Origin: Salinicola socius
GTDB lineage: Bacteria > Pseudomonadota > Gammaproteobacteria > Pseudomonadales > Halomonadaceae
Assembly: GCF_001937195.1 (NCBI RefSeq)
Contig: NZ_MSDO01000002.1
Location: 186,001-250,000 of the forward strand
Direction: 5' to 3'
DNA length: 64,000 bases
Part shown: one piece after another, positions 1 to 19,171 of the stretch
Numbering within the stretch: the stretch's first letter is position 1
Layout of the letters: every line of letters begins with the position of its first letter
Made by a program: the position numbers and the translations under genes
Notes under the pieces: model-generated
What the model saw: the letters and a program-made list of their open reading frames with translations, nothing else
Database searches by the model: none
What the model was told of the DNA's origin: nothing

Positions 1-3000
1 GCGGCGTTGGCGGCCCCATCCAGCACCCGTAGGAATGAGCTGACGGTGCGCGTCGTGGTCGTGGCATCGGGTAGGGCCGGGTTCCTGGCGTATCCATCCT
101 CGATGCCCTGCACGATCTTGCCTGTATCGGACTCGCTGAGATCCAGCTTCTGACTCAGTTTCTCGCGATCACCCACCGGGGCCTCGTCGATGATCTGCTC
201 GATATTCTCGACGAACTTGAGGCCCTTGCCCTCGGTGAACGGGCTGCCGCCGGCGGTGTCCCTGCCCCAGATCTGCGGCAGTGTCTTGTCCAGACCCAGC
301 ATGGCGTTGACGTTGGTGCCTTTGACCTTGTCGACGATGTTGCTGCCGAGATTGACGAAGTGCTGACTGGCGCCCAGGAAGCTGATGAACTCCTTGGCGA
401 TCGCCATGCGCTCTTCCATGGTGTCGGCGAGCGAGCCGCCCTTGCCGGCCAGTTGATAGATGCCCGAAGCGAGCGAGATCAGCCCGCCGGTCGAGCCCAG
501 TGCGCCGTTGCTGTTCAGCGTGCCGATCAGCGACATCATGCCGCCGTTGGTCTGCTCGTTGAGCGCCTTGTAGACGCCGTTCTTCATCAGGCCGTCGATG
601 TCCGACTGGGTGATGGCGCCATTCTTCTGGAAGCGATCACCGAGCTCCTGCAGCGCCTTTCCGAAATTCTTCGCCGTCTGCTGATCGTTGAGATACTCGT
701 TGACGAACTTGTCGATCGACTCCGCCGTGCGTCGTGGAATATCGACACCGGCACGCTTGAGCGCCGTCAACACCATCTTGACCACGTCCTGTGTCGCGGT
801 CGCGGTGTTGGCATCGTTGATCCGATCGGGATTGGCGATCAGGTCGTCGAGATCGGTGATCATCGAATCGAGCTGCAGGCTCTGGGCGAATTCGGCCGCC
901 TTGTCGCTCTCTTCGGTCGCCGGGAACAGCGCCGAGAGCGCATTGTAGGTCCGCGAGATATCCTGCTCGGCGAGTTCCCCCTGGCCGCTTTCGCGCAGGT
1001 CGTTGATGTAGTCGATGTATTCCTCGCCAAACGCGGTCTCTTCCAGTCGCGAAGCGATGCCGTCCTTGTCGGCGACCTTGTCGATCGCGCCTTCCTGGGC
1101 CGCCATGTAATCCTTCTGCACGGCATCGGAGGCGAACAGTTCGCCGAGGCTGGCATCGAGTGCTTCGCCATCGATGATCGACGACAGATCATCGCCGGTA
1201 ACGTGATCGAGGCTCAGCCCCTCCGAGATATCGAGGCCGACCAGATCCAGGCCGTTGTCGAGTGCGCCCTGGGCGCGCAGGGCGCGGTAGAACTGGGCGC
1301 GCTCGTCGTTCTTGTCGATGCTGCCGTCCTCGATGCCCGCTTTCCAGTCGGCTACCAGGTTTTGCCAGGTCAGTTCGCTGACGGTGAGCTTGCGCGAGCT
1401 GTCGTCCGGGTCGGTTTCGCTGGTTTCCATCGACTGGATGTCGACATCGCTGAAGGCCGGCAGATCGTGATCGCGACGCGCCGTATCCAGCTCCGCGTTG
1501 TCGGACAGACGCTGGACGTTGGTCTCGCCGCCGTGCCTCGACCAGTAACCGTCGAAGACATTCTGGACCGCCTTGCCGTCGTCCCCGGCCGCGCTCCCGA
1601 TCCGAGCGCGCAGGTCATCGTTGACCTGGGCGGTGGCATCCTGGCGGGAGACACCGTCGCTCACCTTGCTGTCGATCAGATTCTGGTAGAGCTGCGACAG
1701 CGTTTCCGAGCTTTCAATGTGCAGAATCTGGCGCGTGTCGGTCAGCGTACTGCCCGCCAGGCCGGATGCCAGTGCGTTGAGGTTGTCCTCGTAACTGGGG
1801 TTGTCGGTCACGGTGCTTTCGGCGAGGAAGTCGTCGTAGGCTGCGTAGCCGGCATCGATGGCGTCGTCCTTGCCGCCGTGACGCTCCCAGTAGCCATTGA
1901 ACACATCGAGTCCGTCCTTGCTGCCCTTGTCGGCCCCTTCTTTATCGACATTGGCCAGGGCGTTGCCGGTACGATCGAAGAGATCTTCCTTGGCGTCGTC
2001 GATGGCGGCCTGGAGATCCGGGGCGTCACCGCGCTCGCGCTGCTGATCGAGCTGATAGCCGACCAGCTGGCGGAATTTGTCGCCGGCGTCGCCGGTCAGG
2101 GCGTGAACGGTACGATTGTCGATATCGATACCGTCTGCCATGTCGCTGGCCAGCGAATTCAGGGTGTCGTCGTAGGCGATGTCGGCTTCGTCGCGGTTGG
2201 CCAGATAGCTCTCCTCGGCCAGCTTCTCGGTGTCTTCTTCGCCACCGTGACGTTTGAAGTAACCGTCGAAGACATTGGCGACGTCGCCACCGCCGACGCT
2301 GTCGATGCGCGAGCGTAGATCGTCGTTGACGTGATCCGTCGCTTCCTGGGGATCGTCGCCCTGATCGATCCGGTTCTGGATCAGATTCTTGTAAAGCTGG
2401 GAGAGCGTTTCCGAGCTTTCAATGTGCAGGATCTGGCGCGTGTCGGTCAGCGTACTGCCCGCCAGGCCGGATGCCAGCGCGTTGAGATTGTCTTCGTAGT
2501 CGACGTTGTCGGTCAGCGTGGTCTCTGCCAGAAAGCCGTCGTAGGCGTCATAACCGGCGTCGATCGCGGCATCCTGCCCACCATGACGCTTCCAGTAACC
2601 CTCGAAGACATCGAGACCCTTGTCGGCATCGCGGCCGTCATTCGTCAGCGCGTTACCGATACGATCGAACAGGGCGTCCTTGGCCTTGTCGATGGCGGCA
2701 CCCAGATCCGGTCCATCGCCTCGCTCGCGTTGGGCATTCAATTCGGCCGAGACGAGACGCTGGAACCGGCTGGCAGCCTCCCCCGTCAGCGGTCTCACGG
2801 TGCGCGTATCGGTATCGATCCCGCCGGCCATCGACACCGCCAGCTCGTTGAGTGCGTTCTCGTAGTCTTCGCTACCGGGCAGCAGCGGATCCTTGTTGCC
2901 GCCGTTGCTGGTGCTCTCGGCCAGACGGGTGGCGATACCCAGCGCGGAGGAGAAGGCGGTGCCGAAGCGAGACGACGGTGAATGCTGCTCGAGAGTGTCT

Positions 3001-3020
3001 GCGTCCTGACCAATGCGCAT
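1..3020 (-). CDS. Large repeat-containing T3SS protein, candidate HrpF/NolX/PopF-type translocator (partial, C-terminus beyond left edge)
   Basis: An uninterrupted minus-strand reading frame runs from an ATG at 3018-3020 to the left edge, at least 1006 residues. A strong AAGGAG ribosome site lies just upstream of the ATG. The N-terminal part carries four related units of about 113-123 residues, each with an RHGG motif. The later part is repeat-free and has a glycine-rich, mildly hydrophobic stretch (GGLISLASGIYQLAGKGG) followed by a region resembling, from memory, the C-terminal domain of NolX/HrpF. That family acts as pore-forming translocators of plant-type and rhizobial T3SS, is usually 600-800 aa, and HrpF has N-terminal repeats. 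The gene directly follows sctT, which fits a secreted substrate. It could instead be a large effector. Family assignment is inference; gene reality is near certain. Confidence 0.75.
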   Translation of the reverse strand, partial: MRIGQDADTLEQHSPSSRFGTAFSSALGIATRLAESTSNGGNKDPLLPGSEDYENALNELAVSMAGGIDTDTRTVRPLTGEAASRFQRLVSAELNAQRERGDGPDLGAAIDKAKDALFDRIGNALTNDGRDADKGLDVFEGYWKRHGGQDAAIDAGYDAYDGFLAETTLTDNVDYEDNLNALASGLAGSTLTDTRQILHIESSETLSQLYKNLIQNRIDQGDDPQEATDHVNDDLRSRIDSVGGGDVANVFDGYFKRHGGEEDTEKLAEESYLANRDEADIAYDDTLNSLASDMADGIDIDNRTVHALTGDAGDKFRQLVGYQLDQQRERGDAPDLQAAIDDAKEDLFDRTGNALANVDKEGADKGSKDGLDVFNGYWERHGGKDDAIDAGYAAYDDFLAESTVTDNPSYEDNLNALASGLAGSTLTDTRQILHIESSETLSQLYQNLIDSKVSDGVSRQDATAQVNDDLRARIGSAAGDDGKAVQNVFDGYWSRHGGETNVQRLSDNAELDTARRDHDLPAFSDVDIQSMETSETDPDDSSRKLTVSELTWQNLVADWKAGIEDGSIDKNDERAQFYRALRAQGALDNGLDLVGLDISEGLSLDHVTGDDLSSIIDGEALDASLGELFASDAVQKDYMAAQEGAIDKVADKDGIASRLEETAFGEEYIDYINDLRESGQGELAEQDISRTYNALSALFPATEESDKAAEFAQSLQLDSMITDLDDLIANPDRINDANTATATQDVVKMVLTALKRAGVDIPRRTAESIDKFVNEYLNDQQTAKNFGKALQELGDRFQKNGAITQSDIDGLMKNGVYKALNEQTNGGMMSLIGTLNSNGALGSTGGLISLASGIYQLAGKGGSLADTMEERMAIAKEFISFLGASQHFVNLGSNIVDKVKGTNVNAMLGLDKTLPQIWGRDTAGGSPFTEGKGLKFVENIEQIIDEAPVGDREKLSQKLDLSESDTGKIVQGIEDGYARNPALPDATTTTRTVSSFLRVLDGAANA
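1529..2590 (-). repeat. Four-unit internal repeat in the candidate translocator, arranged A-B-A-B
   Basis: RHGG-encoding motifs occur near 2585, 2247, 1878 and 1536, giving unit spacings of about 338, 369 and 342 bp. Units one apart are diverged, but units two apart are close. The segments beginning at 1701 and 2406 are offset by 705 bp and share about 80 bp with only two mismatches. This means the A-B pair was duplicated, or homogenised by gene conversion, fairly recently. Confidence 0.85.
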
Positions 3021-3157
3021 GGCTTTCTCCTTCCGACCGGGTTCGAGGATGGAAGGCCAGTGTGGAAAGCGGGTATGACGACCCGATGGCAACTTGGCAA
3101 CGCCGTGTAACTCTGTGTGTGGATTCGATGCTCGCAGGGCCGGGGCGTGATCCGCCA

Positions 3158-3976
3158 TCAGCGCATCGCACCCAGAATGGCTTCGAGTCGATCCATGTTG
3201 AGGCTGACGACGTCCAGCTGATCGATCATCAACGGGATCAGGAAGACCACGTAGATCAGCATCAGGAAGGCGAACAGCAGGTTCTTGATCGGCAGCGACA
3301 GGTCGAAGGCGTGAAGGTTCGGCGCCATCCTGGCGACGTAGGCCAGCATCAGATCGGCGATCAGCAGTGCGATGACGAGAGGAGCGATCATCAGCACGCC
3401 GATCTGCATCACCTGGTCGAGCAGACCGAGCACGGCCAGGGCGGAGGTTTGCGACAACAGCGGGACGAATTCCACGGCCGGCCACAGCGCGTAGCTACGA
3501 TAGAACCCGTCGAGCAGCAGCATGAAGCCACCGGTCATGAAGAACAGTGCCAGCAGCGTGATCGTCATCAATGTCGAGGTCACCCCGGACTCGGTGGCCC
3601 CCATCGGGTCGACGATCTGGGCCATGGTCGAGCCGCGTTGCAGATCGATCAGTTCTCCGGCGACCTCGGCGGCCCAGAATGGCACACCGAAGACCAGCCC
3701 GATCGCCACGCCGATCAGCAGCTCCTTGATCACCATGCCAGCGACGGTGACGGAGGAGAGCGACTCCGCGTTCACCATGGCATCGAAGAGCGGCACGATC
3801 AGTGGAATCGAGATCGTCACTGCCACGGCGGAACGGATCATGCCGGTCAGCCCCAGACGATTGAAAGCTGGCGTCACCAGTACCATGCCCAGCGCCCGCG
3901 CCACGCCGATGGCCGCCGCCGCGATCATTGGATAGGCGAACTGGGTCAGGAACTGGGCAAAATCGTCGTAATTCAT
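3158..3976 (-). CDS. sctT: T3SS export apparatus protein SctT (RhcT/YscT/FliR family)
   Basis: The 272-aa hydrophobic protein is a core subunit of the inner-membrane export gate, where SctR, SctS and SctT form the pseudo-helical export pore. About six membrane segments are visible, with the family's conserved EVAGELIDLQRG stretch near the middle and a long hydrophobic C-terminal segment before a short charged tail. Length matches the family (about 260-275 aa). It is the last export-gate gene of operon A and lies after sctS across a 76-bp gap, unlike the overlapping genes upstream. SctU, which normally follows SctT, is not found here. Confidence 0.95.
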   Translation of the reverse strand: MNYDDFAQFLTQFAYPMIAAAAIGVARALGMVLVTPAFNRLGLTGMIRSAVAVTISIPLIVPLFDAMVNAESLSSVTVAGMVIKELLIGVAIGLVFGVPFWAAEVAGELIDLQRGSTMAQIVDPMGATESGVTSTLMTITLLALFFMTGGFMLLLDGFYRSYALWPAVEFVPLLSQTSALAVLGLLDQVMQIGVLMIAPLVIALLIADLMLAYVARMAPNLHAFDLSLPIKNLLFAFLMLIYVVFLIPLMIDQLDVVSLNMDRLEAILGAMR

Positions 3977-4013
3977 AAGGGTCGTTCACAGGGCGTCTGG
4001 TACAAGGCGCTAT

Positions 4014-4044
4014 TTGAAAACCGGCGAGCGCAGCGAGTTTTCAA
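4014..4044 (-). repeat. Inverted repeat between sctS and sctT
   Basis: TTGAAAAC (4014-4021) and GTTTTCAA (4037-4044) form a perfect 8-bp inverted repeat. The 15-nt loop contains GCGAGCGCAGCGAG, itself nearly palindromic and similar in style to dispersed palindromic elements. It sits in the only sizeable gap inside the sctI-sctT run, so it could be a REP-like unit or an mRNA hairpin that lowers sctT expression. No T-tract follows, so it is a poor terminator. Confidence 0.5.
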
Positions 4045-4052
4045 GGAGAGAC

Positions 4053-4322
4053 TCAGCGCGACCAGGCGGCAAAATTGTCCAACACCTGATCGGTAATATT
4101 GACGATCTGCCCGGCCAGCAGCGGCCCTGAGACGATCAGCACCAGCAGCACCGCCACCAGCTTGACCGCCTGGGGCAGGGTCTGGTCCTGAATCTGGGTC
4201 AGCGCCTGCAGCAGGCCGACCCCGAATCCGACGGCGATCGCCACCAGCAGCGCGGGCGCCGATACCAGCAGCACCGTCCATAGCGCGTTCTTCATCAACG
4301 AGAGGAAGATGTCGTCCGTCAT
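4053..4322 (-). CDS. sctS: T3SS export apparatus protein SctS (RhcS/YscS/FliQ family)
   Basis: The 89-aa protein has two transmembrane helices (about residues 14-38 and 52-75), the standard FliQ/SctS hairpin, with the family motif LLQALTQIQDQTLP between them. SctS packs with SctR and SctT to form the export gate in the inner membrane. The start ATG lies one base after the sctR stop, and a GGAGG site sits inside the end of sctR, so the two genes are translationally coupled. Confidence 0.96.
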   Translation of the reverse strand: MTDDIFLSLMKNALWTVLLVSAPALLVAIAVGFGVGLLQALTQIQDQTLPQAVKLVAVLLVLIVSGPLLAGQIVNITDQVLDNFAAWSR

Positions 4323-4323
4323 C

Positions 4324-4983
4324 CTAGCCGCCTCCGTAACTCAGAATCAGGCCGTGCATCAGTCGTGACCAGCCATCCACGGCCACGAACAGGAAGATCT
4401 TCAACGGGATCGAGATCAGCGTCGGCGACACCATCATCATGCCCATCGCCATCAGCACGTTGGAAACGATCAGGTCGATGATCAGAAACGGAATATAGAG
4501 CAGGAAGCCGATCTCGAAGGCACGGGTCAGCTCGGAGCTGACGAAGGCCGGGATCAGCACGATCAGATCGTCGCTCTGCAGGTCCTCGCGCGCCTCGTCC
4601 GACCACAGCGTGCGAGTGGCATCGATGAAAAAAGCGCGCTCGTGCTCGCTGGCGTAGCGCGACAGATACGCCTGCAGCGGCCCGCGTATCGCCTCGCCGG
4701 CCTGCTTGATCTCCTCGACGCTGGCCAGCCCCGCCGAGCGCTGTTCGAATTCATGCGCCATCTCGCCCACCAGCGGCGTGGTGATATAGACGGTGAGAAT
4801 CAACGCGATGCCATAGAGCACGAGATTGGGGGGTGTCTGCTGAACGCCGAGGGCGTTGCGGATCAGGAACAGCACCACCGATATCTTGAGAAAGCCCGTC
4901 ATCGTGACCACCGCCAGCGGTACCAGGCCGATGGTGGCGACCACGATGATGATCGCGATCAGGTTGGGCTGGAACTCAGTCAT
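4324..4983 (-). CDS. sctR: T3SS export apparatus protein SctR (RhcR/YscR/FliP family)
   Basis: The 219-aa protein starts at MTEFQPN. The frame is open further upstream, but that part is only the antisense frame of sctQ, and this start gives the normal family length. Features seen are an N-terminal hydrophobic segment, the conserved TGFLKISVVLFLIRNALGVQ region, a central soluble part, and the conserved C-terminal FEIGFLLYIPFLIIDLIVSN and GMMMVSP motifs. It is the main subunit of the export gate (five copies in known structures). The start overlaps the end of sctQ by 8 bp, indicating coupled translation. Confidence 0.97.
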   Translation of the reverse strand: MTEFQPNLIAIIIVVATIGLVPLAVVTMTGFLKISVVLFLIRNALGVQQTPPNLVLYGIALILTVYITTPLVGEMAHEFEQRSAGLASVEEIKQAGEAIRGPLQAYLSRYASEHERAFFIDATRTLWSDEAREDLQSDDLIVLIPAFVSSELTRAFEIGFLLYIPFLIIDLIVSNVLMAMGMMMVSPTLISIPLKIFLFVAVDGWSRLMHGLILSYGGG

Positions 4984-6259
4984 CCCCGGCGCGTCCTTCC
5001 CCGAGCGCGAGCCTCTCGATCTGTACACCGATGGCATCGCCGATCGCGACCAGACGTCCACGCCCCATCGTCCGGCCGTTGACGACAAGGTCGACAGCCT
5101 GATCGGGGCGACGCTGAAGCGGCAGTACGCTGCCTTCGCCGAGCTGGCGAAGTTCGCCGAGAGACATCTCCAGGCGACCCAGCTCACAGGTCAGCCGCAC
5201 CGGCAGATCGTTCACGCCAGCACCATTGATGTCAGCACCGTTCATGTCAGCACCGTTGACGTTGGAACCGATCGCCGTCTCGTTCTTGAGGCTCGAGTCA
5301 TTCCGATCCCGGTCGGCGAGTGTCGTCTTGTCCACACCCGGTTCGGGTGGGGCGGTTGAGGTTTCGTTATCCACAGTGTCTTCGTCCTCATGGGTTGCCG
5401 TGACGTCGGGAGTCTCAATGGCGCGCGCTTCGCGTGGGGCGCTCGGGACCGGGCGGGGAGTCATCCGCTGCAGCGGCTCGCTCAGGCGCAGTCCGGTTTC
5501 GTGGAAACGAATGCGGCAACCGAATCGATCGGCCAGGTTCAAGCGTGCCTCATCGGCCGCCGCGGCCTCGAGCATGACCATGTCGCCGGGGCGCAGGCTG
5601 CGCCATTCGCCCAGCGTCAGCGTCTGTTCGCCAGTCTCGACCCGCAGGGTGGCAACGACGGCATTGGCCGGGGCTGGCTCGGCCACGAAAGCGCGATCGA
5701 ATAGCGGCAGCAGCATCTCGGCGGCGGAAAGCGGCAGATCGAGCGCCAGCGGGTGGGACTCATCACCGAGTTGGAAGACGACGCTGACGCGCATCGTGGG
5801 TTCCGACAGCACCGGTGGCGAGGGCGCCAGACGGATATCGGCGCCCAGCGTCGCTTCCAGTGGCTCCAGCCACTCGAGCCAGACCACTTCGAGCCACATC
5901 GCGGCCAGCTCGGGATCGACCTCGTCCAGGGTGCGCCGCCGGTCGGGATGCTGGCCGAGCCGATCGAAAGCACGAGCGCTACCGCTCAGTACCACCGACG
6001 TCTTACCCACCCGGATGGCGATCTTGCACGCCTCGGGGATATCCGCCGTGTCCGGCAGCAGGTGCAGGCTGGCGGCGCGGCCGTACCAGTCGAACGCGAG
6101 CGGCCGACGCGCCACGTGCAAGGCATTGTGCAGTGCCAGCCGGGCGGGATCGATCGACGGCAGGTCCGAGAGCGAAAGCGGTGCCGAGCGCGAGGATAGC
6201 CAATGGCCTGCAGGAGCAAGGTCGGAAGTGGAAGGGTCCGAAGCGAAGTCGATCGTCAT
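4976..6259 (-). CDS. sctQ: T3SS cytoplasmic ring (C-ring/sorting platform) protein SctQ
   Basis: The 427-aa protein has a C-terminal SpoA (FliN/FliM-like) domain, from about residue 345: LPVRLTCELGRLEMSLGELRQL through a VDLVVNGRTMGRG strand. A further SpoA-like region lies near residues 200-270 and a variable N-terminal domain precedes it. SctQ with SctK and SctL forms the sorting platform beneath the needle base. A low-complexity linker at about 325-345 repeats the NGAD motif and is encoded by a 15-bp tandem repeat. In related systems the C-terminal SpoA domain is also made from an internal start. An ATG lies in that linker, but I cannot show it is used. The gene overlaps sctO by 4 bp and sctR by 8 bp. 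Confidence 0.9.
   Translation of the reverse strand: MTIDFASDPSTSDLAPAGHWLSSRSAPLSLSDLPSIDPARLALHNALHVARRPLAFDWYGRAASLHLLPDTADIPEACKIAIRVGKTSVVLSGSARAFDRLGQHPDRRRTLDEVDPELAAMWLEVVWLEWLEPLEATLGADIRLAPSPPVLSEPTMRVSVVFQLGDESHPLALDLPLSAAEMLLPLFDRAFVAEPAPANAVVATLRVETGEQTLTLGEWRSLRPGDMVMLEAAAADEARLNLADRFGCRIRFHETGLRLSEPLQRMTPRPVPSAPREARAIETPDVTATHEDEDTVDNETSTAPPEPGVDKTTLADRDRNDSSLKNETAIGSNVNGADMNGADINGAGVNDLPVRLTCELGRLEMSLGELRQLGEGSVLPLQRRPDQAVDLVVNGRTMGRGRLVAIGDAIGVQIERLALGEGRAGDD
5217..5265 (-). repeat. 15-bp tandem repeat inside sctQ
   Basis: Three copies of a 15-bp unit occupy 5221-5235, 5236-5250 and 5251-5265, with a decayed fourth edge. They encode NGAD-type pentapeptides in the linker before the last SpoA domain. 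Multiples of three keep the frame, so copy number can change linker length without breaking the gene. Confidence 0.8.
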
Positions 6260-6738
6260 CTCCGGTCTCCTCGGCCCGGCGACATCTCTTCCATCTCCAG
6301 TTCCGCCAGGCGCTCGGCATCGACGATCCGAGCGTGATGACGGTCGTCCCCCAGTCGCTCCAGCGCTTGCTGAGCGCGCCGACGACGTGCCCAGTCGGCA
6401 GCCAGGCCGTCACGTTCCTGTTCGGCGGCGCGAAGGGTCTGTGCCTGGGTCCGGCGCTGCCGAATCAGCGATTCGCGATGCTCGGCGTCATCGGCCAGCG
6501 TCTGTTGCCACTCGGCCAGGGCGTTGGCATCGAGCGGCTGGTGCTGGCCGGCCTCGAAGTGGGTCTGTTCCCGTTGAGTGGATGTGCGCTGGTGTTCGAT
6601 CAGAGATGCTTCCAGCCTCTGGCGTTGTGCGGCAAGGTCGTGGCAGTGACGCTGACCCGCCGCCAGTGCCTCCTCGGCCAGACGCGTGCGCTGGCGCCGC
6701 AGTCGAATCAGACGCTCGAGCTGATGCGACGAGGTCAT
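6256..6738 (-). CDS. sctO: T3SS stalk protein SctO (YscO/Y4yJ/FliJ-like)
   Basis: The 160-aa protein is almost entirely charged coiled coil, rich in R, E, Q and A with heptad spacing and no membrane segment. It lies between the ATPase gene sctN and sctQ, the position of SctO/FliJ-like stalk proteins that link the ATPase to SctV. Sequence alone would not identify it, because this family is very divergent; size, coiled coil and gene order do. It overlaps sctN and sctQ by 4 bp at each end. Confidence 0.82.
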   Translation of the reverse strand: MTSSHQLERLIRLRRQRTRLAEEALAAGQRHCHDLAAQRQRLEASLIEHQRTSTQREQTHFEAGQHQPLDANALAEWQQTLADDAEHRESLIRQRRTQAQTLRAAEQERDGLAADWARRRRAQQALERLGDDRHHARIVDAERLAELEMEEMSPGRGDRR

Positions 6739-10292: not shown

Positions 10293-10295
10293 GTG

Positions 10296-10751: not shown

Positions 10752-10842
10752 TCACCTCATCATCTGGCTCGTGGCGAACGGCGGCAACCGACAGTCGTGT
10801 CGATCTCGAATGACGGTTGCCGCCAGCGATGGCAATTTTGTG

Positions 10843-11040: not shown

Positions 11041-11193
11041 GTGTTGTCTCCTTCGGGTTTCGCATTGACCGATCGGCAAGTGTGCCATCGGCGAGTCATC
11101 GCGCAGCTCCCAGGAACGGCGCTTCAGAAACGGCCAGCCATGATCGATAACGGCCGTCTACCGCGTTTTCATCTGTCCGCAATGCTCATTCGC

Positions 11194-11880: not shown

Positions 11881-11954
11881 GCCGTCTCGCCCCAAGCGAC
11901 GGGTTCTCGGGTACGCTGTCTTCCCCTCTCTCTTGCTGCTGGACTGACTCACGG

Positions 11955-12779
11955 ATGAAGGCATTTTTGACGCATTCTCGGATTGATGATTCTCGCGTGA
12001 AGTGCACGCTGACGGCACTCTGCCTGAGCCTTGTGCTCTCTGCCTGTGCGTCGACGCCTACCGACAGCAGCGAAGCCCGTCTGCTCAAGCTGGCCGACGA
12101 TATCGATCAACGTGGCGATCACGCCACGGCGGCGGCGATGTACCAACGCGCCCTGGCGCAGAACGGTGCCTCTCCCGACATTCAGATTCGTCTGGGCAAC
12201 GCGCGCCTTGCTGCCGGTGAGCCCGCTGCGGCCGCAGAGGCCTTTCGCGCAGCGTTGAGCGACGATATCGATCTGGCGCCGGCACTGCTCGGTCTGGGGA
12301 CGGCGCAATTGCGGCTTGGCGAGCCCGAAAGTGCGCTGCGAAGCCTGTCTCGCGCCGCTCCCGACGTCGACAGTGTGGCCGGATGGAGCCGGCTCGGCGC
12401 TGCGCAGGCCCTGGTGGGGCGCCCCTCGCAGGCCGTCGAGGCGTTCTCCAGAGCCCGGGCGCTCGCACCGCGAGACCTGGATGTGCTGGCCAATCTGGCG
12501 CTGGCCGAGTCGCTGGCCGGTGATCACGCCGAGGCGATTGCCGCGATGCGCCAGATCACCGACTCCCCGTTGGCCGAAGCGCGTCATTACCGCAACCTCA
12601 TTCTGGTACTGGTGCTCGCCGGCCAGACCGATCAGGCACGTCGGATCGAAATTCCCGACCTGGCGATCGCGAAGCGTGAATCGCTGATTGCCAGCGCCGA
12701 ACGCCTCGCCGCACTGCCCGGCGCTGCCGAGCGTGCCCAGGCGCTGGGCATGGCCATGGCCTCCTTCAACGAGCCTTGA
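11955..12779 (+). CDS. TadD-like TPR lipoprotein next to split secretin genes
   Basis: The 274-aa protein has a lipoprotein signal ending LSAC (Cys31 from the first ATG). A GTG at 11997 gives a more compact signal and may be the true start. The rest is five to six TPR-like helical repeats, for example the DHATAAAMYQRALAQNGASP, EPAAAAEAFRAAL and RPSQAVEAFSRARALAP stretches. Size, lipidation and repeats match TadD of Tad pili, which helps secretin assembly. Here it lies between the RhcC1 gene (divergent) and the CpaD-like and CpaC-like genes (convergent), so a pilotin-like role for the T3SS secretin is inferred. Confidence 0.8.
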   Translation: MKAFLTHSRIDDSRVKCTLTALCLSLVLSACASTPTDSSEARLLKLADDIDQRGDHATAAAMYQRALAQNGASPDIQIRLGNARLAAGEPAAAAEAFRAALSDDIDLAPALLGLGTAQLRLGEPESALRSLSRAAPDVDSVAGWSRLGAAQALVGRPSQAVEAFSRARALAPRDLDVLANLALAESLAGDHAEAIAAMRQITDSPLAEARHYRNLILVLVLAGQTDQARRIEIPDLAIAKRESLIASAERLAALPGAAERAQALGMAMASFNEP

Positions 12780-12826
12780 GCGGGGATCGGGCCGGCCATC
12801 CGTCGTGCAGCTCATGTCCCGAGCCT

Positions 12827-13276
12827 TCACAGGCCACCGGTCGTCGCGGTATTGCCCATGGCACTGCGGGCTTCGTTTTCCAGCATGGCGCGCCGCTCGT
12901 TGGCACGGGCGCGATCATCGAGGCGCTCGCTGGCGGCCTTGGCGACCGGTCCCGCCATCGCCGGTCCCATGTCTCGACCGTGGGTCAAGTCCCGGGGATC
13001 GGCGACCATCAACTGAAGATTGAGATCGTTGGCGCAGCCCGGAGGGAGCGTGATCAACCCCTCGTCCTCCGGCTGCGACTGGCAGAGATTGGGCAGCGTC
13101 GCCATCTGCCCGACCGTGACGTCAGCCGATTGTGGATTGGCCACGGCCACCTGGCGATAGCCGCTGGTCCAGCTCATCGGCCCCATCGAAGACTGGCAGC
13201 CGGCCAGTAGCGTCAGCACCAGCAGCGGTGCCAGGCGTCGGCTCACCTCGGCCGACAGGATCAATACTCGAGACAT
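12827..13276 (-). CDS. CpaD-like lipoprotein downstream of the T3SS secretin
   Basis: The 149-aa protein has a lipobox LLAGC (Cys27). The start ATG at 13276 has a GGAG site. The body carries a pattern typical of CpaD pilus-biogenesis lipoproteins: GCANDLNLQLMVADPRDL, then GPAMAGPVAKAASERL. CpaD/RcpB is an outer-membrane partner of the CpaC/RcpA secretin in Tad pili. The gene follows the CpaC-type secretin at 13338. In rhizobial T3SS a lipoprotein gene also follows rhcC2. The assignment rests on motif memory, not a search. Confidence 0.78.
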   Translation of the reverse strand: MSRVLILSAEVSRRLAPLLVLTLLAGCQSSMGPMSWTSGYRQVAVANPQSADVTVGQMATLPNLCQSQPEDEGLITLPPGCANDLNLQLMVADPRDLTHGRDMGPAMAGPVAKAASERLDDRARANERRAMLENEARSAMGNTATTGGL

Positions 13277-13337
13277 GAGGGGTTCTCCTCGGTCATTGCG
13301 GTGTCTCTCATCGCCACTCGCTGTATCGCCACTCGTC

Positions 13338-14660
13338 TCATCGCAGGTAGAAGCCGAAGGGATCGTCGGCGCCCGCCGACCTCGCGTGCTGCGCCGGGTC
13401 ATCTCCCAATCGCGGATCACGACTGACCCGGGCCTGATCCAGCGGCGTTCTCGGGGCCGGCGAGGAGGAGGGGCGGACCAGGTACGGCGTGATCAGGATC
13501 ACCAGTTCGGTCTCGTTGCGCTGGAAGCGGCGTGACCGGAACAGCTGGCCCAGAATCGGGATATCGCCCAGCACCGGGACGCGCTCGATCTCGTTGGAAG
13601 CCTGGCGCTGGAACAGCCCGGCGATGGCGAAGGTCTGGCCGCTGCCGACTTCGACCACGGTGTCGGCCCGCCGCACCTGCAACGATGGCACGTCGTAGCC
13701 GGCGATCTGGACATTGTCGCTGGTCAGGCTGCTGACCTCTGGCCGGACTTCCATCGAGATGCGGCCGTTAGGCAGCAGCGTCGGCGTGCTCAACAGAGAG
13801 ACACCGAATTGCTTGTACTGGATGCCTACCAGATCACTGTTGACCGGTACCGGGATCGGCACCTCGCCGCCGGCCAGGAAACTCGCCGTCTGCCCCGAGA
13901 CCGTGGTGATATTGGGTTCGGCGAGAATCTGCAGCAGATTGTTCTGCTGCAGAGCCTGCAGCAGGCCATCGACGCCCTCACTGGTCGGCGAGCTGGCGAT
14001 ATTGCTGGTCAGCACGCCGAACGAGAACGAACCGTTGTTGATCAGCGCATTCCAGCTGATGCCGTAGCTCAGCAGCTCCTCACGGGCGACCTCGGCAAAA
14101 CGCACCCGGATATTGATCTGGTTGGCGCCCTCAAAGGTCGAGCGGTTGAGGGCGCCGCCGGCTGGCGACTGGGCGTCGAGCGTCGACTGTGTCGCCATGG
14201 CGCCATCGACCGAGGCGCTACTGCCATCGGCCACCAGCTGATTGCCGGCCATGTGTAGCCGGACCTGACTGTCGCCATCGAGCCCCCGCAAGGCCTGTCG
14301 GGCTTGCCCATCGCCGTCGCGGACCAGCAGGCGCAAAGACGCCTGGCTCTCGTCGTCGGCGCCGAGGGCGATCAGATTGGTATCGCCACTCTGCTTGCCG
14401 AACAGGTAGATCACACCGGGGGAGACCACCTGCACATCGGCGATTGCCGGGTTGGCGACGAACACCGAAGCGACCTGCCGATCGAATCGCAAGACACGCC
14501 CCTGGCCGGTCTCCAGCGTCATGGCTCCGCCCGCATCATCGATGGCGACGTCGCCGCTGGCGGGCAAGGCGACAACGGTGATCAGCAGGATCAACAATTG
14601 CGTGAGGAGGCGCACGCTCGTCTCGATGAAACTCGCGCCGGAGATTGCGCCTGCTTTCAT
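13338..14660 (-). CDS. RhcC2-like C-terminal secretin half of CpaC/RcpA (Tad) type
   Basis: The protein is about 440 aa from the ATG at 14660; an upstream in-frame ATG lacks a ribosome site. After a signal peptide it has the pilus-secretin N-terminal domain (RVLRFDRQVASVFVANPAIAD, then SPGVIYLFGKQSGDTNLIAL). Next come a secretin signature region (FAEVAREELLSYGISWNAL) and the pore domain (LAEPNITTVSGQTASFLAGG, then VPVLGDIPILGQLFRSRRF and ETELVILITPYLV). This order is that of CpaC/RcpA. It forms the outer-membrane ring, presumably with the RhcC1-like protein. Confidence 0.9.
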   Translation of the reverse strand: MKAGAISGASFIETSVRLLTQLLILLITVVALPASGDVAIDDAGGAMTLETGQGRVLRFDRQVASVFVANPAIADVQVVSPGVIYLFGKQSGDTNLIALGADDESQASLRLLVRDGDGQARQALRGLDGDSQVRLHMAGNQLVADGSSASVDGAMATQSTLDAQSPAGGALNRSTFEGANQINIRVRFAEVAREELLSYGISWNALINNGSFSFGVLTSNIASSPTSEGVDGLLQALQQNNLLQILAEPNITTVSGQTASFLAGGEVPIPVPVNSDLVGIQYKQFGVSLLSTPTLLPNGRISMEVRPEVSSLTSDNVQIAGYDVPSLQVRRADTVVEVGSGQTFAIAGLFQRQASNEIERVPVLGDIPILGQLFRSRRFQRNETELVILITPYLVRPSSSPAPRTPLDQARVSRDPRLGDDPAQHARSAGADDPFGFYLR

Positions 14661-14700
14661 GAAGCTTTCTGCCACTGTGTCACGAGCGTATTCCATCCCT

Positions 14701-14732
14701 GTCGTTGTCCATCGCTGTCGTTGTCCATCGCT
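14701..14732. repeat. 16-bp direct tandem repeat upstream of the secretin gene
   Basis: The unit GTCGTTGTCCATCGCT occurs twice without a gap (14701-14716 and 14717-14732), between the sctV end and the secretin start. It appears to be a simple slippage duplication; no function is visible. Confidence 0.8.
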
Positions 14733-14812
14733 AGTTGCGTTATCGCGGCTCGGCAACGCGCGCGTAGTCGAGCTTCGACACCGGAATCCAGAGTCCTGTC
14801 ATCATGTTACGG

Positions 14813-14866
14813 CTTTGTCAGCGCTTTCTGTCACTTTGTCAGCGCTTTTTATCCCTTTGTCTGAGC
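14813..14866. repeat. 21-bp tandem repeat spanning the sctV stop codon
   Basis: Two and a half copies of a 21-bp unit beginning CTTTGTCAGCGCTTT start at 14813, 14834 and 14855. The sctV stop codon (14849-14851) lies inside the second copy, so the repeat supplies the last residues (QTKG) of SctV and the following untranslated DNA. Gain or loss of a unit would alter the SctV tail. Confidence 0.75.
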
Positions 14867-17017
14867 CTCGGTCTCTCTTCTCGGCGTCGGCTTCGGCAGC
14901 CGTACCTGGGCGATGGCCTGAAGACTGAATTCGGGGGCGATTTCGGTCCAGGCCATGGCCGCGAGGTCGATCTCCTGTTGCTTGAGCCATTGTTGCAGCG
15001 ACGCGCGGACGTCGCCGGCGACCACGACGACCGGCTGCAGGTCGTTATCGAGAGCCGCCAGCTGCTGTTGGAACCAGGCGCCTAGCGCTCGAGACAGCGG
15101 TGCCGGTAACCCGCTGCGCAGCGGCTGATCCTCGGCATGCCGTTGGGCGGCGCGCAGCGCTTCTTCCAGCGGTCGGGTGGCGACCCAGGCCGGTAGCACT
15201 CTGTCGCTCCGTGCATGGCGGTGACAGATTTGGCGCGCCATGGCAACGCGGATGCGATCGGCGAGCCTTGCGCTGCTGGATTCCTGCGGTCCCCAGGTCA
15301 CCATCGCCTCGAGAATGGTGCGCATCGAGCGGACAGGGACCCCTTCGTTGACCAGGCGCCGCAGGATCTCCGCCATCTTCTGCAGCGAGACGACGCGAAC
15401 CGCTTCGGTGACCAGTTCGGCGTAATCCGTTTCCATTCGGGCGAGCAGCGCACGCGCTTCCTGAATACCGACAAAGTCACCGGCGTAGCGCGTCAGCGTG
15501 CGCTCCAGGCAGTGCTCCAGTACCTGATCCGGCGTGCGGTAGCGCACGCCAGCATCAAAGAGTGCGGTGCCAGCGGAGGACGGTAGCCACTGCCAGGTGC
15601 CGCGGCCGACCAGCGCCGGCTCGGTTTCCGGCGTCAGCTCGAGGAGCTCCAGTGTGCTGGCGTCGTCATCCAGCAGCAGCCGAGATGCCGCCAGCTCGCC
15701 GTTGAGCACCGGCACTTCGTCCAGCTCGACGGCGAAGCGGCGGGCGGCAAGGCCCGGCTCGATTCTCAGTCCGACCGAGGGAATGGCAATTCCCAGGTCG
15801 CGCTCGACGCGCTCGCGGGCGGCCTGCACGCCTTCCCGCAGGACATCCAGCGATAGCGTGTCGGCCAGCCCGGCACCCAGGCACAGCATGACGCGATGTT
15901 GGCGGGGATCGTCATCGGCCTGCCGGGAAGAGGCGTCGCCCTGCGACTCGGCGGCGGCATCACCGGAGGTCGACGATGCGCCGTGGTCGGCATCGGTGTC
16001 GCTCTGATCGGCTTGCTCGGCCGCCTGCTCGCGCAGATGGCGTCGGCGCAGGAAGTAAGCGGCGCTGCCCAGCAACCCCGCCAGGGCCAGGAACACGCCG
16101 GTGGCGAAGCCCGGCACGAAAGCGGCGCAGAACAGTACCGCGGCGGTCAGGCCCAGCGCTCTGGCGTTGCTACCCAACTGGCCGACGATCTCGCTACCCA
16201 GGTCGCTGGCATTGTCGGAACTGACGCGGGTCACCACGGTGCCGGCGCCGATCGAGATCAGTAGCGCCGGGATCTGGGCGATCAAGCCATCGCCGACGGT
16301 CAGCAGCGAGTAGGTTTCCACCGCATCGCCGAATGGCATGTCGTGCTCCAGCATCCCGATCAGCAAGCCGCCGATCAGGTTGACGAAGAGAATCACCAGT
16401 CCGGCAATGGCGTCGCCCTTGACGAACTTCATCGCCCCGTCCATGGCCCCGTAGAGCTGGCTTTCGCTCTCCAGCAGCGAGCGTCGCCGGCGAGCCTCGA
16501 CGTTGTCGATGTCGCCGTTGCGCAGTTCGTTGTCGATGCTCATCTGCTTGCCGGGCATGGCATCGAGGGTAAATCGGGCGGCGACCTCGGCGACGCGCTC
16601 CGAGCCTTTGGTGATGACCAGGAACTGGGCCACCGTGATGATCAAGAACACCACCATGCCGATGACGACTTCTCCGGCAATGACGAAGTTGCCGAAGGCG
16701 TTGACGATCTGGCCGGCATCGCCTTCGAGCAGGATCAGCCGGGTCGTGGTGATCGACAGGGCCAGACGAAACAGCGTCGCCAGCAGGATGATCGGCGGCA
16801 GCGAGGAGAACTCCACCGGGTGCGAGATGTAGAACGCCACGATCAGAATCAGCAGACTGAAACCGATGTTGATGCCGATCAGCGCATCCACCATGGCAGT
16901 GGGGAGCGGAATGATCATCATCACCACTGCCAGCACCATGAACGCGGCGATCACCACGTCGCTGCGCTGGGAGGCGCGGCGGGCCAAGGTGTTGAGGCGA
17001 CCGAGAAATTTGTTCAT
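14849..17017 (-). CDS. sctV: T3SS major export gate protein SctV (RhcV/YscV/FlhA family)
   Basis: The 722-aa protein has an N-terminal membrane domain of about eight helices with the conserved segments TLFRLALSITTTRLIL and GSERVAEVAARFTLDAMPGKQMSID. A charged linker (about 330-370, rich in D, S and Q) follows, then the cytoplasmic ring domain that receives substrates and chaperones. Nine copies form the export gate's cytoplasmic ring in known systems. The ATG overlaps the stop of the preceding TPR gene by 4 bp. Confidence 0.97.
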   Translation of the reverse strand: MNKFLGRLNTLARRASQRSDVVIAAFMVLAVVMMIIPLPTAMVDALIGINIGFSLLILIVAFYISHPVEFSSLPPIILLATLFRLALSITTTRLILLEGDAGQIVNAFGNFVIAGEVVIGMVVFLIITVAQFLVITKGSERVAEVAARFTLDAMPGKQMSIDNELRNGDIDNVEARRRRSLLESESQLYGAMDGAMKFVKGDAIAGLVILFVNLIGGLLIGMLEHDMPFGDAVETYSLLTVGDGLIAQIPALLISIGAGTVVTRVSSDNASDLGSEIVGQLGSNARALGLTAAVLFCAAFVPGFATGVFLALAGLLGSAAYFLRRRHLREQAAEQADQSDTDADHGASSTSGDAAAESQGDASSRQADDDPRQHRVMLCLGAGLADTLSLDVLREGVQAARERVERDLGIAIPSVGLRIEPGLAARRFAVELDEVPVLNGELAASRLLLDDDASTLELLELTPETEPALVGRGTWQWLPSSAGTALFDAGVRYRTPDQVLEHCLERTLTRYAGDFVGIQEARALLARMETDYAELVTEAVRVVSLQKMAEILRRLVNEGVPVRSMRTILEAMVTWGPQESSSARLADRIRVAMARQICHRHARSDRVLPAWVATRPLEEALRAAQRHAEDQPLRSGLPAPLSRALGAWFQQQLAALDNDLQPVVVVAGDVRASLQQWLKQQEIDLAAMAWTEIAPEFSLQAIAQVRLPKPTPRRETEAQTKG

Positions 17018-17388
17018 GGCGCGGATTCTCCGCAGGCGGTGTCATCGTGACGGCGCTGTTCGAGGTAACGCTGGAAATGACGTCGGGCCAAAGCGCGCTC
17101 GCCGGTCAGCCATTCGGCACGGCTGCGCAGCAGGATCAGCGTGGCGTCGTGTTCGTGGTTCGCCTCGAGCCGCGCTATCACGTTGAGCGCGCGCGCGCCA
17201 TTGCCGCTGGCCAGAAACCCCCGGCATAGCGCGCGCAGAACGCCGGCGTGATCCGGCGCCATGCGATTGGCGATCAGCAACATGACCATGCCGCGTCGAG
17301 TCTGGCCGCTTTTAAGATAGAGATGGCCCATCAGGTGCAGCAGATCGACGGCGTCGCGATCGTTGACCGAGCCAGGGGACTGGTTCAA
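17014..17388 (-). CDS. Small TPR-like T3SS protein (Y4yS/SctY-like position)
   Basis: The 124-aa soluble protein has helical repeat segments of TPR type (LLHLMGHLYLKSGQTRRGMV, VLRALCRGFLASGNGARAL, then AEWLTGERALARRHFQRYL). It overlaps sctV by 4 bp and the gene upstream by 4 bp, so it is part of the same translational unit. In rhizobia a TPR protein (y4yS) is encoded beside rhcV, and in Yersinia YscY works with SctV. A chaperone or SctV-partner role is therefore likely but inferred. Confidence 0.75.
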   Translation of the reverse strand: MNQSPGSVNDRDAVDLLHLMGHLYLKSGQTRRGMVMLLIANRMAPDHAGVLRALCRGFLASGNGARALNVIARLEANHEHDATLILLRSRAEWLTGERALARRHFQRYLEQRRHDDTACGESAP

Positions 17389-17798
17389 GTGAAACGCTCC
17401 TCGTCGAGATCGTCGCCTGCCGGGGCGAGTGTGGCGTCGGTCAGGCGGCTCTCCCAGGCCTGACGCCAGTCGAGTTCTTCACCCATGATGATCCTGGCCG
17501 TGGAGACGGTGTCATCGTCTGCATCCATCGAGGGCAGGACACTATCGATCACATGCTGAAGGAGTTCGATGCTGCGCTGATTGTCGTAGCTGCGAGCATC
17601 GTTGGCCTCGGGGCTCGCCAGGGCATCGAGGCGCTCGGCCAGGGCGGGGCGGTCGGCGTCGCGTCCTCGGGCCTTGCTGGCCGCGCGGGTGAAAGCCTCA
17701 TCGCGGGCCGCGGTCCTGTCGGCGTGCCGAGTCGATGTGACCTCGACGCTCGTGGCGCGATGGCGATCATCGGGAATCGGTCGATCGGTGATCTTCAT
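17385..17798 (-). CDS. Hypothetical T3SS operon protein, 137 aa
   Basis: The protein is highly charged and soluble, with a basic, probably disordered N-terminal half (many R, D and T) and a short helical C-terminal part (SIELLQHVIDSVLPSMDAD, then IIMGEELDWRQAWESRLTD). I do not recognise the family. It lies between sctD and the TPR gene and overlaps the latter by 4 bp, so it is almost surely translated. A secreted regulator or chaperone is possible; nothing in the sequence decides. Confidence 0.65.
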   Translation of the reverse strand: MKITDRPIPDDRHRATSVEVTSTRHADRTAARDEAFTRAASKARGRDADRPALAERLDALASPEANDARSYDNQRSIELLQHVIDSVLPSMDADDDTVSTARIIMGEELDWRQAWESRLTDATLAPAGDDLDEERFT

Positions 17799-17838
17799 GA
17801 GGCGGTAGCCAGGTCAATGCATCAATCGTGGTTGTCGT

Positions 17839-18792
17839 TCAGAGCGTTAGCGCGAACTGGTCGTCACCGCGACGCAACAACACCTGCTCGGGTTGAATGG
17901 CGGAAATCACCCAGCCCGATGCCAGCGCCGCGCCGGGATAGAGCCGTTTTCCCCGGTTGTCGATGACGTAGGGGTTGGTTCCAAGCCAGACGGCTTGCAG
18001 TTTCAGGTCGGGCCGGGCAGGAGCCACTCGTGGCCGCGCGGTGTTGAGCAGCACCTGGTGGCTTCCGAAGTGCTGATCGAACCAGCGCTGCGTCTGATGC
18101 CAGGCGTCGACCTGATTCGCGGCGTAGTCACCGGACACGCTGAGATAGGCGCCGTGGTCGGTCACGGAGAGCGAGGCGAGACCGGCATCGGCCAGGTGCT
18201 GGCGCAGCGCTTCTGCCGGGCCCGGGCGCGCGTCGGCTACCATCTGGCTGACCCCCTCGAGCACCTGTGGATCCAGCTTGGCCCTGAGGGGGTAGCCGCC
18301 GATGTTGGCACCCGCCTGATTGACGTCGATGAATTCATAGACCGCCAGCACCCCCAGCGTCGCCACGAGAGCGAGCATCGTCGCGCCACGGTTAAGGGAG
18401 GTTCGCCAGCGTGGCGACAACGGCGGTAGCCTGGGCAGCGTCGGCATTATCGCGGGTGCCTCGGGTCGCGATAACGTCAGCGTCACGCCACCACAGCACA
18501 GTTCTGCGGGGAGCTCGCTACGCAGCCCAGTGCCTTGAGTGACGGTTCGACCGTTGATGACGATATCGCCGCCGACGGCCTCGACGGCCATTTGCCGGCC
18601 GTGAAAACGCAGCACCAGGTGCTCTGGCGCTATTCCGGCGTCGCTGAGCAGGACGTCGGCAGTGTCTTGGCTGCCGATCCGACAGACGGTGTCGGTCAGA
18701 TCTACCGCGGCGCCACGATGCAAGCCGGCGGTAACGGTGAGCGTCGTAACGATTTCGCGTGCCGACGCCAGAGAGGAGGTGACGGATTCCAT
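17839..18792 (-). CDS. sctD: T3SS inner-membrane ring protein SctD
   Basis: The 317-aa protein has a cytoplasmic FHA-like domain (about 15-110, with RIGSQDTADVLLSDAGIAPEH), a proline-rich linker, one transmembrane helix near residue 140 (GATMLALVATLGVLAVYEFI) and periplasmic ring-building domains after it. This order is diagnostic for SctD/YscD, which surrounds SctJ and contacts the secretin. No clear Shine-Dalgarno precedes the ATG, so the start is tentative. Confidence 0.88.
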   Translation of the reverse strand: MESVTSSLASAREIVTTLTVTAGLHRGAAVDLTDTVCRIGSQDTADVLLSDAGIAPEHLVLRFHGRQMAVEAVGGDIVINGRTVTQGTGLRSELPAELCCGGVTLTLSRPEAPAIMPTLPRLPPLSPRWRTSLNRGATMLALVATLGVLAVYEFIDVNQAGANIGGYPLRAKLDPQVLEGVSQMVADARPGPAEALRQHLADAGLASLSVTDHGAYLSVSGDYAANQVDAWHQTQRWFDQHFGSHQVLLNTARPRVAPARPDLKLQAVWLGTNPYVIDNRGKRLYPGAALASGWVISAIQPEQVLLRRGDDQFALTL

Positions 18793-18997
18793 GCGGTTAA
18801 CTCGCTAATGTCGTACGAAGCAGTGAGAGATCCCTTGGCTATTCGTGCCGCAATCACCGGGCGGATAGCCAAGAAAACTCCGAAGAACGGTATCCTTTTC
18901 GCCACTCGACCTGGTCGCCTCGATCGCGAGGGCCACGACGCAAGGTGTGGTCGATAGGGCGTCGCGGGCAGCGTGGCGCTCCCCGCGACTTTCCGCA

Positions 18998-19171
18998 TCA
19001 GTTCTGCGGGCGCTGCTTGGTCGCGTCGAGCATGGTTTTCTTCTCGGTCGTGACCTTGGTGATTTCCGCGGATTTCTCGATTGCCTGATCGAAGACTGCC
19101 TTCAACTGACTGATGGAAGAGTCAGCGCTGTCATTCGAAGTTGACGGATCGATTGCAGGAGTATCAGCCAT
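18998..19171 (-). CDS. 57-aa protein, candidate T3SS needle/pilus subunit
   Basis: MADTPAIDPS starts at 19171 after an AGGAGA site. The first 20 residues are Ser/Asp/Thr-rich. The rest is one amphipathic helix (SISQLKAVFDQAIEKSAEIT and following) ending KQRPQN. Small helical proteins of this kind, without a signal peptide and encoded first in a sctD-sctV operon, are needle or pilus subunits (SctF, NopA, HrpA classes), which diverge too fast for confident recognition. It could also be a secreted helper. Confidence 0.7.
   Translation of the reverse strand: MADTPAIDPSTSNDSADSSISQLKAVFDQAIEKSAEITKVTTEKKTMLDATKQRPQN

Follow-up and report, generated by a model that had tools for sequence, protein, structure and literature searches.

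A 21.5-kb chromosomal island of Salinicola encodes a probably complete type III secretion system of the Rhc-II type

A 64,000-nucleotide stretch of the Salinicola socius genome (contig NZ_MSDO01000002.1, positions 186,001 to 250,000; hereafter the window) carries within its positions 1-19171 most of a chromosomal island with genes for a type III secretion system (T3SS). A first-pass annotation, made from the letters alone, had taken the cluster for a Rhizobium-type (Rhc) T3SS in a probable gammaproteobacterial halophile, laid out as the nolW-B-T-U-V set of rhizobial symbionts and ending in a NolX/HrpF-like translocator. The locus raises the question of which T3SS family it belongs to and what it might serve. 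Our analysis indicated that the DNA comes from Salinicola, a member of the Halomonadaceae, in keeping with the proposed halophile, and that the cluster is very probably a complete-looking system of the Rhc-II type, for which an assembly model and a plant-leaning host can be proposed.

The family was examined by phylogeny. In a careful SctV tree (64 rows, support given as UFBoot/SH-aLRT), the window fell inside a clade of Rhc-I and Rhc-II systems (36 rows, 100/99) and lay on its Rhc-II side (28 rows, 99/98; 26 rows, 100/98), together with the second T3SS of Sinorhizobium fredii NGR234 on pNGR234b and not with the one on pNGR234a. The window, Pseudomonas-like genomes and a Klebsiella plasmid formed a gammaproteobacterial branch (20 rows, 100/99), and the Halomonadaceae clade with the window comprised 11 rows (100/100). 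Two quick SctV trees agreed with the careful one. Nine duplicate loci, the window's own copies and non-SctV loci had been removed from the table before the trees were built. A further 19 codes were dropped for the first quick tree and 41 for the second quick and the careful tree; these 41 were near-duplicates, flagellar rows that were long or surplus, and the Rhc-III row L079 with its long branch. Long branches in the careful tree belonged to the Klebsiella plasmid, Providencia and L105, and some long branches met near the outgroup; the reference labels Hrp1, Ysc and SPI-1 were taken from record annotation or assumed. A quick SctN tree (50 rows) returned the Rhc-II side with 19 rows (99) and the gammaproteobacterial branch with 13 rows (99), the union of Rhc-I, Rhc-II and Rhc-III being supported by 82 only. 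In an unrooted quick tree of SctC2 (41 rows, with long branches for Paracoccus, Klebsiella and Tad), Rhc-I and the Tad secretins each occupied one side of a branch (100), and the window grouped with Rhc-II. The Rhc assignment was upheld by the trees of all three proteins, and SctV and SctN, two of the phylogenies that the first-pass annotation had named as its check, did not place the system in another T3SS family. The best SctV from the rhizobial order over most of its length, that of Phyllobacterium zundukense, was 51% identical, with 47% for pNGR234b and 41% for the Rhc-I protein of pNGR234a; by these identities, the system is no close copy of any rhizobial system found.

The gene content pointed in the same direction. 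Profile searches revealed a non-flagellar T3SS with all core genes present and all identified core frames open (Table 1). The order on the minus strand, D-x-Y-V-C2-lipoprotein followed by C1-x-I-J-K-L-N-O-Q-R-S-T, was confirmed by the profile matches as it had been proposed, and the proposed core genes were recovered; SctU, just past the window edge, and a tetratricopeptide repeat (TPR) lipoprotein gene were missing from that first list. Besides the position of SctV and SctN in the Rhc clade, the cluster displayed further marks of Rhc systems, namely separate C1 and C2 secretin genes, a Y4yQ-type SctD and no SctP gene between SctO and SctQ, whose frames overlap. Besides branching with pNGR234b, it displayed the Rhc-II arrangement of a V-C2-x block with an opposite-facing TPR gene. 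The HrpK-like putative translocator, an optional gene of some Rhc-II systems only, was not found. Frame 3973-4281, tried as SctS, proved to be a wrong frame that matched no family. Of 18 profiles made from cluster genes (a set without SctV, SctR and SctS), 17 found a counterpart at E < 0.01 in one or more Rhc-II loci of rhizobia or Pseudomonas-like genomes, the sole exception being a large protein between SctT and SctU, and judged by these matches the likeness to Rhc-II loci is not due to chance. Two negative results weigh against a complete, working system: no regulator family was recognized among the island's predicted proteins scanned, and no effector was identified, no genome-wide search having been made.

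Table 1. Features of the Salinicola T3SS island in window coordinates; positions below 1 lie outside the window
Feature	Position	Strand	Basis
Island, 21,478 bp	-1656..19821 (1..19821 inside window, -1656..0 outside)	.	Empty-site alignment
SctU	about -1616..-567, just past window edge	.	Profile match
Large T3SS-linked protein, 1186 aa	-540..3020 (window part 1..3020)	-	No family; conserved in related clusters
SctT	3158..3976	-	TIGR01401 6.6e-59
SctS	4053..4322	-	PF01313 5.6e-23
SctR	4324..5187, true start probably ~4980	-	NF009438 2.3e-86
SctQ	4976..6259	-	TIGR02551 1e-37
SctO	6256..6738	-	PF07321 3.6e-5, 24.2 bits, below cut-off 28.8; position
SctN ATPase	6735..8351, true start probably ~8060	-	NF005391 5.3e-174; TIGR01026 above cut-off; tree
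SctL	8117..8704	-	TIGR02499 2.1e-23
SctK (NolU position)	8701..9474	-	Profile match to NGR234a NolU 5e-12
SctJ	9471..10292	-	TIGR02544 5e-68
Inner-rod candidate SctI (NolB/NopB position)	10296..10751	-	hhalign to NolB family 62%, E 7e-5; position
Small protein between C1 and rod candidate	10843..11088	-	Kept in Pseudomonas-like and some rhizobial Rhc-II clusters
SctC1, T3SS-type N0 remnant of secretin	11194..12018, true start probably ~11860	-	TIGR02516 7.8e-18; PF21304 1.6e-5
TPR lipoprotein, PilW/TadD-like, candidate secretin pilotin	about 11955..12779	+	TPR_1 1.4e-17; type_IV_pilW 3.1e-7; lipobox visible
Shortened CpaD-like outer-membrane lipoprotein, 149 aa	12827..13276	-	PF09476 1.5e-7, 31.8 bits vs cut-off 31.1
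SctC2, Tad-type secretin	13338..14756	-	PF13629 (pilus N domain) 1.3e-19; PF00263 2.2e-46; tree
SctV	14849..17017	-	TIGR01399 6.9e-227; trees
SctY chaperone	17014..17388	-	NF052415 1.8e-20
SctX-position protein, between SctY and SctD (PSPPH_2518 position)	17385..17798	-	Conserved in Rhc-II loci; no Pfam family
SctD, Y4yQ type	17839..18792	-	PF23893 Y4YQ_C 7.8e-20; PF16697 (YscD) 8.5e-14
Needle/pilus subunit candidate (NopA position), 56 aa	18998..19168	-	hhalign to NopA-position open reading frames

The system is not confined to the source genome. A close SctV (>1000 bits) was present in 11 of 18 Salinicola genomes, in one of which a contig end truncates it; of 19 other Halomonadaceae genomes sampled, one had it too. 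Among records with organism names there were at least 13 loci, and those listed comprised eight under Salinicola names, one labelled gammaproteobacterium and one each in Litchfieldella anticariensis, Halomonas heilongjiangensis, Vreelandella titanicae and Modicisalibacter muralis. Farther out, wider samples were screened for SctV at E 1e-116 or better: the order gave 31 positive genomes (390 sampled), the phylum 23 (398) and the class 9 (369), the source genome being counted each time. Many of these matches fell into other T3SS families in the trees. In the genus that we take to be Pseudomonas (the naming of family f21 and genus g72 as Pseudomonadaceae and Pseudomonas is inferred), SctV was matched at 1e-138 in 31 of 199 genomes, 20 of these at 53-57% identity; the system would then be one that recurs in Gammaproteobacteria and not an oddity of rhizobia. 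T3SS-2 of Pseudomonas syringae was already identified as Rhc-II by Gazi in 2012 (PMC3574062), and because of this and the 20 of 199 Pseudomonas-like genomes, the view that such a layout, this case aside, typifies symbionts is outdated. Rhc-II outside rhizobia has been known since 2012; what is new is its occurrence in this halophile group, which extends Rhc-II to the halophilic Halomonadaceae. No report of a Salinicola or Halomonas T3SS of this family was found in the titles and abstract starts of the open-access literature searched.

Several other loci surfaced in these searches. The Salinicola genome G007, which lacks the island, holds a different non-flagellar T3SS at G007:C6:20615-21682 (L175), with an SctV 53% identical over 352 residues, matches to SctD, N, O, Q, T and U, and no C2 or CpaD match. 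The Klebsiella pneumoniae plasmid pS270-1-6 (L040), typed as conjugative and with IS elements nearby, bears an Rhc-II-side T3SS, as do further Klebsiella plasmids (H65, H66), on a long branch in the trees. At L077:15660-15995, the PLSDB label rphA (rifampin phosphotransferase) coincides with a match to the SctY chaperone and looks mislabelled. In three Rhc-II clusters from the rhizobial order, the gene after SctU encodes an L,D-transpeptidase (L069:25971-26594, L070:26044-26595 and L078:21871-22533); none was seen in the Salinicola island. The small protein at 10843-11088 has a conserved C-terminal stretch.

Comparison with empty sites defined the island. In four T3SS-free Salinicola genomes (G001, G009, G010 and G012), it was precisely absent: the match to the source contig (C2) ended at contig coordinates 184295-184343 and resumed at 205822-205842 after 62-109 bp, and because the matches break at these points the island is estimated at about 21,478 bp. 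It is flanked by mntP and a DUF533 gene, which lie about 23.5 kb apart in the source genome. The two genes are close together also in G004 and G005, the latter bearing its T3SS at another site, and in G003 the site is occupied and colinear with the source genome. The genes found in the island were T3SS genes, with no mobility gene among them, and the two 500-base junction stretches shared no word of at least 10 bases. The island may have been gained where it is present or lost from the empty sites. The nesting of V. titanicae inside Salinicola in an eight-protein tree (91/92) would fit a transfer of the island from Salinicola to V. titanicae, but an approximately unbiased (AU) test did not reject a single Salinicola clade (p 0.148). 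Those flagellar export genes that were found lie apart from the T3SS, on contig C83. Elsewhere in the window, positions 59396-60916 encode a glucosylglycerol-phosphate phosphatase (Salt_tol_Pase match), consistent with a halophile.

The island genes that were tested look maintained. Between S. acroporae and S. lusitanus, the ratio of nonsynonymous to synonymous substitution rates (dN/dS) was below 1 in all 16 genes tested and 0-0.351 in 15 of them; between S. halimionae and S. halophyticus, it was 0.08-0.41 in all 11 genes tested. These sets left out SctV, R, S, T and U, and their start codons were uncurated, which may inflate the values. The genes tested look to be under purifying selection, the value of 0.68 for SctK in the S. 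acroporae/S. lusitanus pair being the one that fits this least. In two relatives, L074 (36815-37863) and L269 (the S. tamaricis F01 cluster), SctU lies in more than one frame piece, and in L269 SctT and the large protein are also in pieces, which could reflect sequencing errors or decay; judged by its frames, not every relative's copy is demonstrably intact. Taken together, the conserved frames and the dN/dS values below 1 in the genes tested are consistent with a working system.

Such a system would probably inject proteins into eukaryotic cells, with plants of salt marshes as the most plausible partner. According to a title cited in PMC9027204, five species were described from the endosphere of Halimione portulacoides, including S. 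halimionae, S. halophyticus and S. lusitanus, and these three are among the carriers in the matches listed. Because three carrier species were described from inside a salt-marsh plant, halophytes are our leading guess for the host, isolation source being the only ground. A less probable but still plausible alternative is that an intact system serves an interaction with microbes, fungi or protists, or extracellular secretion. Such a use would sit well with the remaining carriers among the matches listed, such as V. titanicae, Litchfieldella and Modicisalibacter, and with S. acroporae, which is presumably named for a coral. Two papers, moreover, assign no known role to Rhc-II (PMC3973906, PMC8780523); the endosphere origin of the three Salinicola species, again an isolation source only, speaks for plants. 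Halophyte hosts remain our preferred reading. Salinicola species, one of which has already served as an inoculant to promote plant growth (PMC9027204), could be used to probe the role of Rhc-II.

What is most novel here is an outer-membrane set derived from Tad pili and conserved throughout the Rhc-II branch, together with the needle candidate treated below. The secretin had been described as split, and two genes, C1 and C2, are indeed present; they are not halves of one gene, because C2 is a Tad-type secretin and C1 a remnant with the T3SS N0 domain. Searched against the PDB, the C2 profile matched best the Tad secretin RcpA (8odn, 2.6e-64), with the T3SS secretin MxiD at 1.2e-6, which agrees with the published derivation of RhcC2 from a Tad locus and of RhcC1 as a T3SS remnant (PMC3459982). 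The lipoprotein of the V-C2 block matched the CpaD family (Pilus_CpaD). Among the 32 loci listed, a CpaD-like gene directly followed C2 in 24 of the 25 with a C2 match; the exception was Bosea (Rhc-I), where a lipoprotein frame follows C2 too. Judged by gene order, Rhc-II systems in general carry a CpaD-like gene right behind C2, which this analysis adds: homology to CpaD has been noted in passing for a Mesorhizobium loti Rhc-I protein (PMC4311626), and no report of CpaD in Rhc-II was found in the open-access literature searched.

Profile comparison by hhalign supported this identity. Rhc-II CpaD-like proteins matched real Tad CpaD at 83% (E 9e-6, 54 columns) and those of Rhc-I at 98.5% (E 1.8e-15, 189 columns), with seven other T3SS families as controls at or below 0.2%. 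The rows numbered 9 for Tad, 7 for Rhc-I and 24 for Rhc-II; left out were the Tad locus L254, which has no clear CpaD frame, Bosea (Rhc-I), and Paracoccus and G573 (Rhc-II). The Rhc-II proteins measure 117-163 residues against 223-333 in Tad, their N-terminal part being missing, and they keep the lipobox cysteine and a GC-x-N-x-x-NL-x-x-M motif (12 rows). Several results count against the assignment. The Rhc-II match spans 54 columns only, the window's lipoprotein is no full-length CpaD and covers profile positions 160-192 of 200 only, among the Rhc-II proteins compared only those of the window and of the Klebsiella plasmid passed the Pfam cut-off, and barely so, and G1205 and G573 gave no CpaD match at E 0.01 or better. 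The shortening by about 100 residues, with the N-terminal part gone, would also fit non-functional debris left from the capture of a Tad secretin. This we consider improbable, as 12 aligned sequences (Halomonadaceae, Pseudomonas-like genomes and rhizobia) show no variation in the motif core or at the lipobox cysteine, dN/dS is 0.24 and 0.36 in two species pairs, and the gene keeps its place directly after C2.

The second candidate partner of the secretin is the TPR lipoprotein. The minus-strand frame 11949-12830 is a spurious antisense frame; in the relatives compared, its matches ran antisense to the TPR gene, and the real gene is that of the plus-strand lipoprotein. It was found in 31 loci, query included, from Halomonadaceae and other Rhc-II-side loci, and at 1e-6 in none of the Rhc-I or Paracoccus-type loci compared. 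A point against a specific role is that its profile matches TPR proteins generally in the PDB. Rhc-II systems have no y4yS, and the pilotin of their Tad-type secretin has been left open (PMC4500985), a question on which both the TPR lipoprotein and the CpaD fragment bear as candidates. Rhc-II clusters thus appear to keep two Tad-type outer-membrane partners, the CpaD fragment and the TPR lipoprotein.

Needle and inner rod were sought by the same means. The needle candidate lies upstream of sctD and is conserved in 15 Rhc-II-side rows. Compared with open reading frames at the NopA position in six Rhc-I loci, it scored 94.6% (E 7e-8); three of the six had themselves been picked by the needle profile, and with the three picked by position alone the match was 65% (E 6e-5), against at most 0.1% for six other families in the same three-frame comparison. 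The rod candidate, encoded before SctJ, matched NolB at 62% (E 7e-5). Eight remaining hhalign pairs lay at 0.1-5.5%, except one; an intended control, the needle against the small protein 10843-11088, scored 39.7%, and because of this pair the rod match is only moderate. That control, the lower needle score with the position-picked frames and the failure of both profiles to match any solved needle or rod protein in the PDB all tell against these identities. On balance, there is moderate support from profile comparison for a NopA-like needle candidate in Rhc-II clusters. Both this and the rod candidate bear on a review (PMC3973906) according to which NopA, NopB and NopC are missing from the Rhc-II and Rhc-III clusters in several sinorhizobia.

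The large protein next to SctU had been read as a NolX/HrpF-like translocator. This reading was rejected: domain scans found no NolX, HrpK1 (PF16937) or other family, although the HrpK1 model does detect one protein each from Phyllobacterium and Klebsiella, and in BLASTP neither these two HrpK-domain proteins nor NopX gave more than noise. Its N-terminal half is repetitive, with an identical stretch visible twice in the translation; a relative matches the repeat region off the diagonal, and BLASTP of the protein against itself listed no repeats. A hydrophobic stretch lies near residues 1036-1087, towards the C-terminus. Homologues share 78-87% identity in ten loci of Salinicola and Halomonas/Vreelandella, two of these being partial or split. 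Identity falls to 31-33% in two of the four Pseudomonas-like loci and to 22% in the Paracoccus cluster. In the latter, on plasmid pKON1, the homologue is a 1326-aa 'hypothetical' protein (L042:24946-28926), and the T3SS cluster branches just outside Rhc-I and Rhc-II. From its conservation in these clusters, the large protein is a T3SS-linked protein in its own right and probably the translocator or a main secreted substrate; against such a role speak its lack of known translocator domains and the failure to find it in five other loci compared, those of Phyllobacterium, Klebsiella, NGR234b and Ensifer.

These parts suggest how the machine might be assembled. The export gate SctRSTUV, the ATPase complex (SctK, L, N, O and Q) and the inner rings SctD and SctJ would drive substrates through the inner rod and then a short needle. 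SctC1 would keep the T3SS N0 ring for docking on the inner ring, and SctC2 would form the outer-membrane gate. The shortened CpaD might clasp this secretin through its conserved C-terminal motif, a model we propose because Caulobacter tomography (2026) has CpaD modelled as the outer-membrane ring partner of the Tad secretin (PMC13170226). The TPR lipoprotein would act as pilotin of the gate, as in Tad pili, and the large protein would be the translocator or a main substrate. More broadly, Rhc T3SSs may have taken over a Tad outer-membrane module of secretin, CpaD and TadD-like TPR lipoprotein, with CpaD pared down in Rhc-II, a cryptic NopA-like needle and a NolB-like rod present, and halophytes as the site of use; we put this forward tentatively, as somewhat short of probable. 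If true, the CpaD fragment and the TPR lipoprotein would answer what pilots the Rhc-II secretin, and with needle and rod present Rhc-II systems would be complete injectisomes, here in halophyte-associated Salinicola.

Among known systems, P. syringae T3SS-2, compared by its description, has the same D-x-Y-V-C2-x block followed by the C1-to-T genes and an opposite-facing TPR gene between C2 and C1 (PMC3574062), as well as an SctO with no SctP gene between O and Q. Unlike it, the Salinicola island belongs to a Halomonadaceae host, showed no regulator and holds, in place of the HrpK-like protein of P. syringae, the large protein, in which no HrpK1 domain was found. With the pNGR234b system (L071), matches extend over D, the X position, Y, C2, CpaD, C1, the rod, J, K, L, N, Q, T, U, the needle candidate and the TPR lipoprotein; there, the D-to-CpaD block is oriented otherwise relative to C1-to-T, SctU stands beside that block, SctO, the small protein and the large protein find no match, and SctV has diverged to the identity given above. 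The closest layout is therefore that of Rhc-II and not, as first assumed, the nolW-B-T-U-V set of pNGR234a (L043). That a classical Rhc-I system with this set and NolX came straight from a rhizobium is very improbable: the split secretin, the gene order and the Y4YQ-type SctD are in common, but the SctV, SctN and C2 trees, which refute this reading unless long branches have misled them, give Rhc-I a separate, well-supported clade, the V-C2-x block and opposite-strand TPR gene match Rhc-II, and neither the NopX/NolX nor the ttsI of Rhc-I was seen, with no NolX match and no regulator family among the island proteins scanned. The pNGR234a system does share C1, a Tad-type C2 and a CpaD-family lipoprotein after C2; it differs in having C2 in a segment of its own, an annotated NopX, a longer CpaD that matches the whole Pfam profile and a TPR gene after SctV (the Y4yS position), the TPR lipoprotein not being found there. 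The CpaC-CpaD module of the Caulobacter Tad system, finally, offers the same secretin type with an adjacent CpaD gene (PMC13170226), whereas in Salinicola this pair is built into a T3SS and CpaD is cut down to a lipid anchor and the C-terminal motif.

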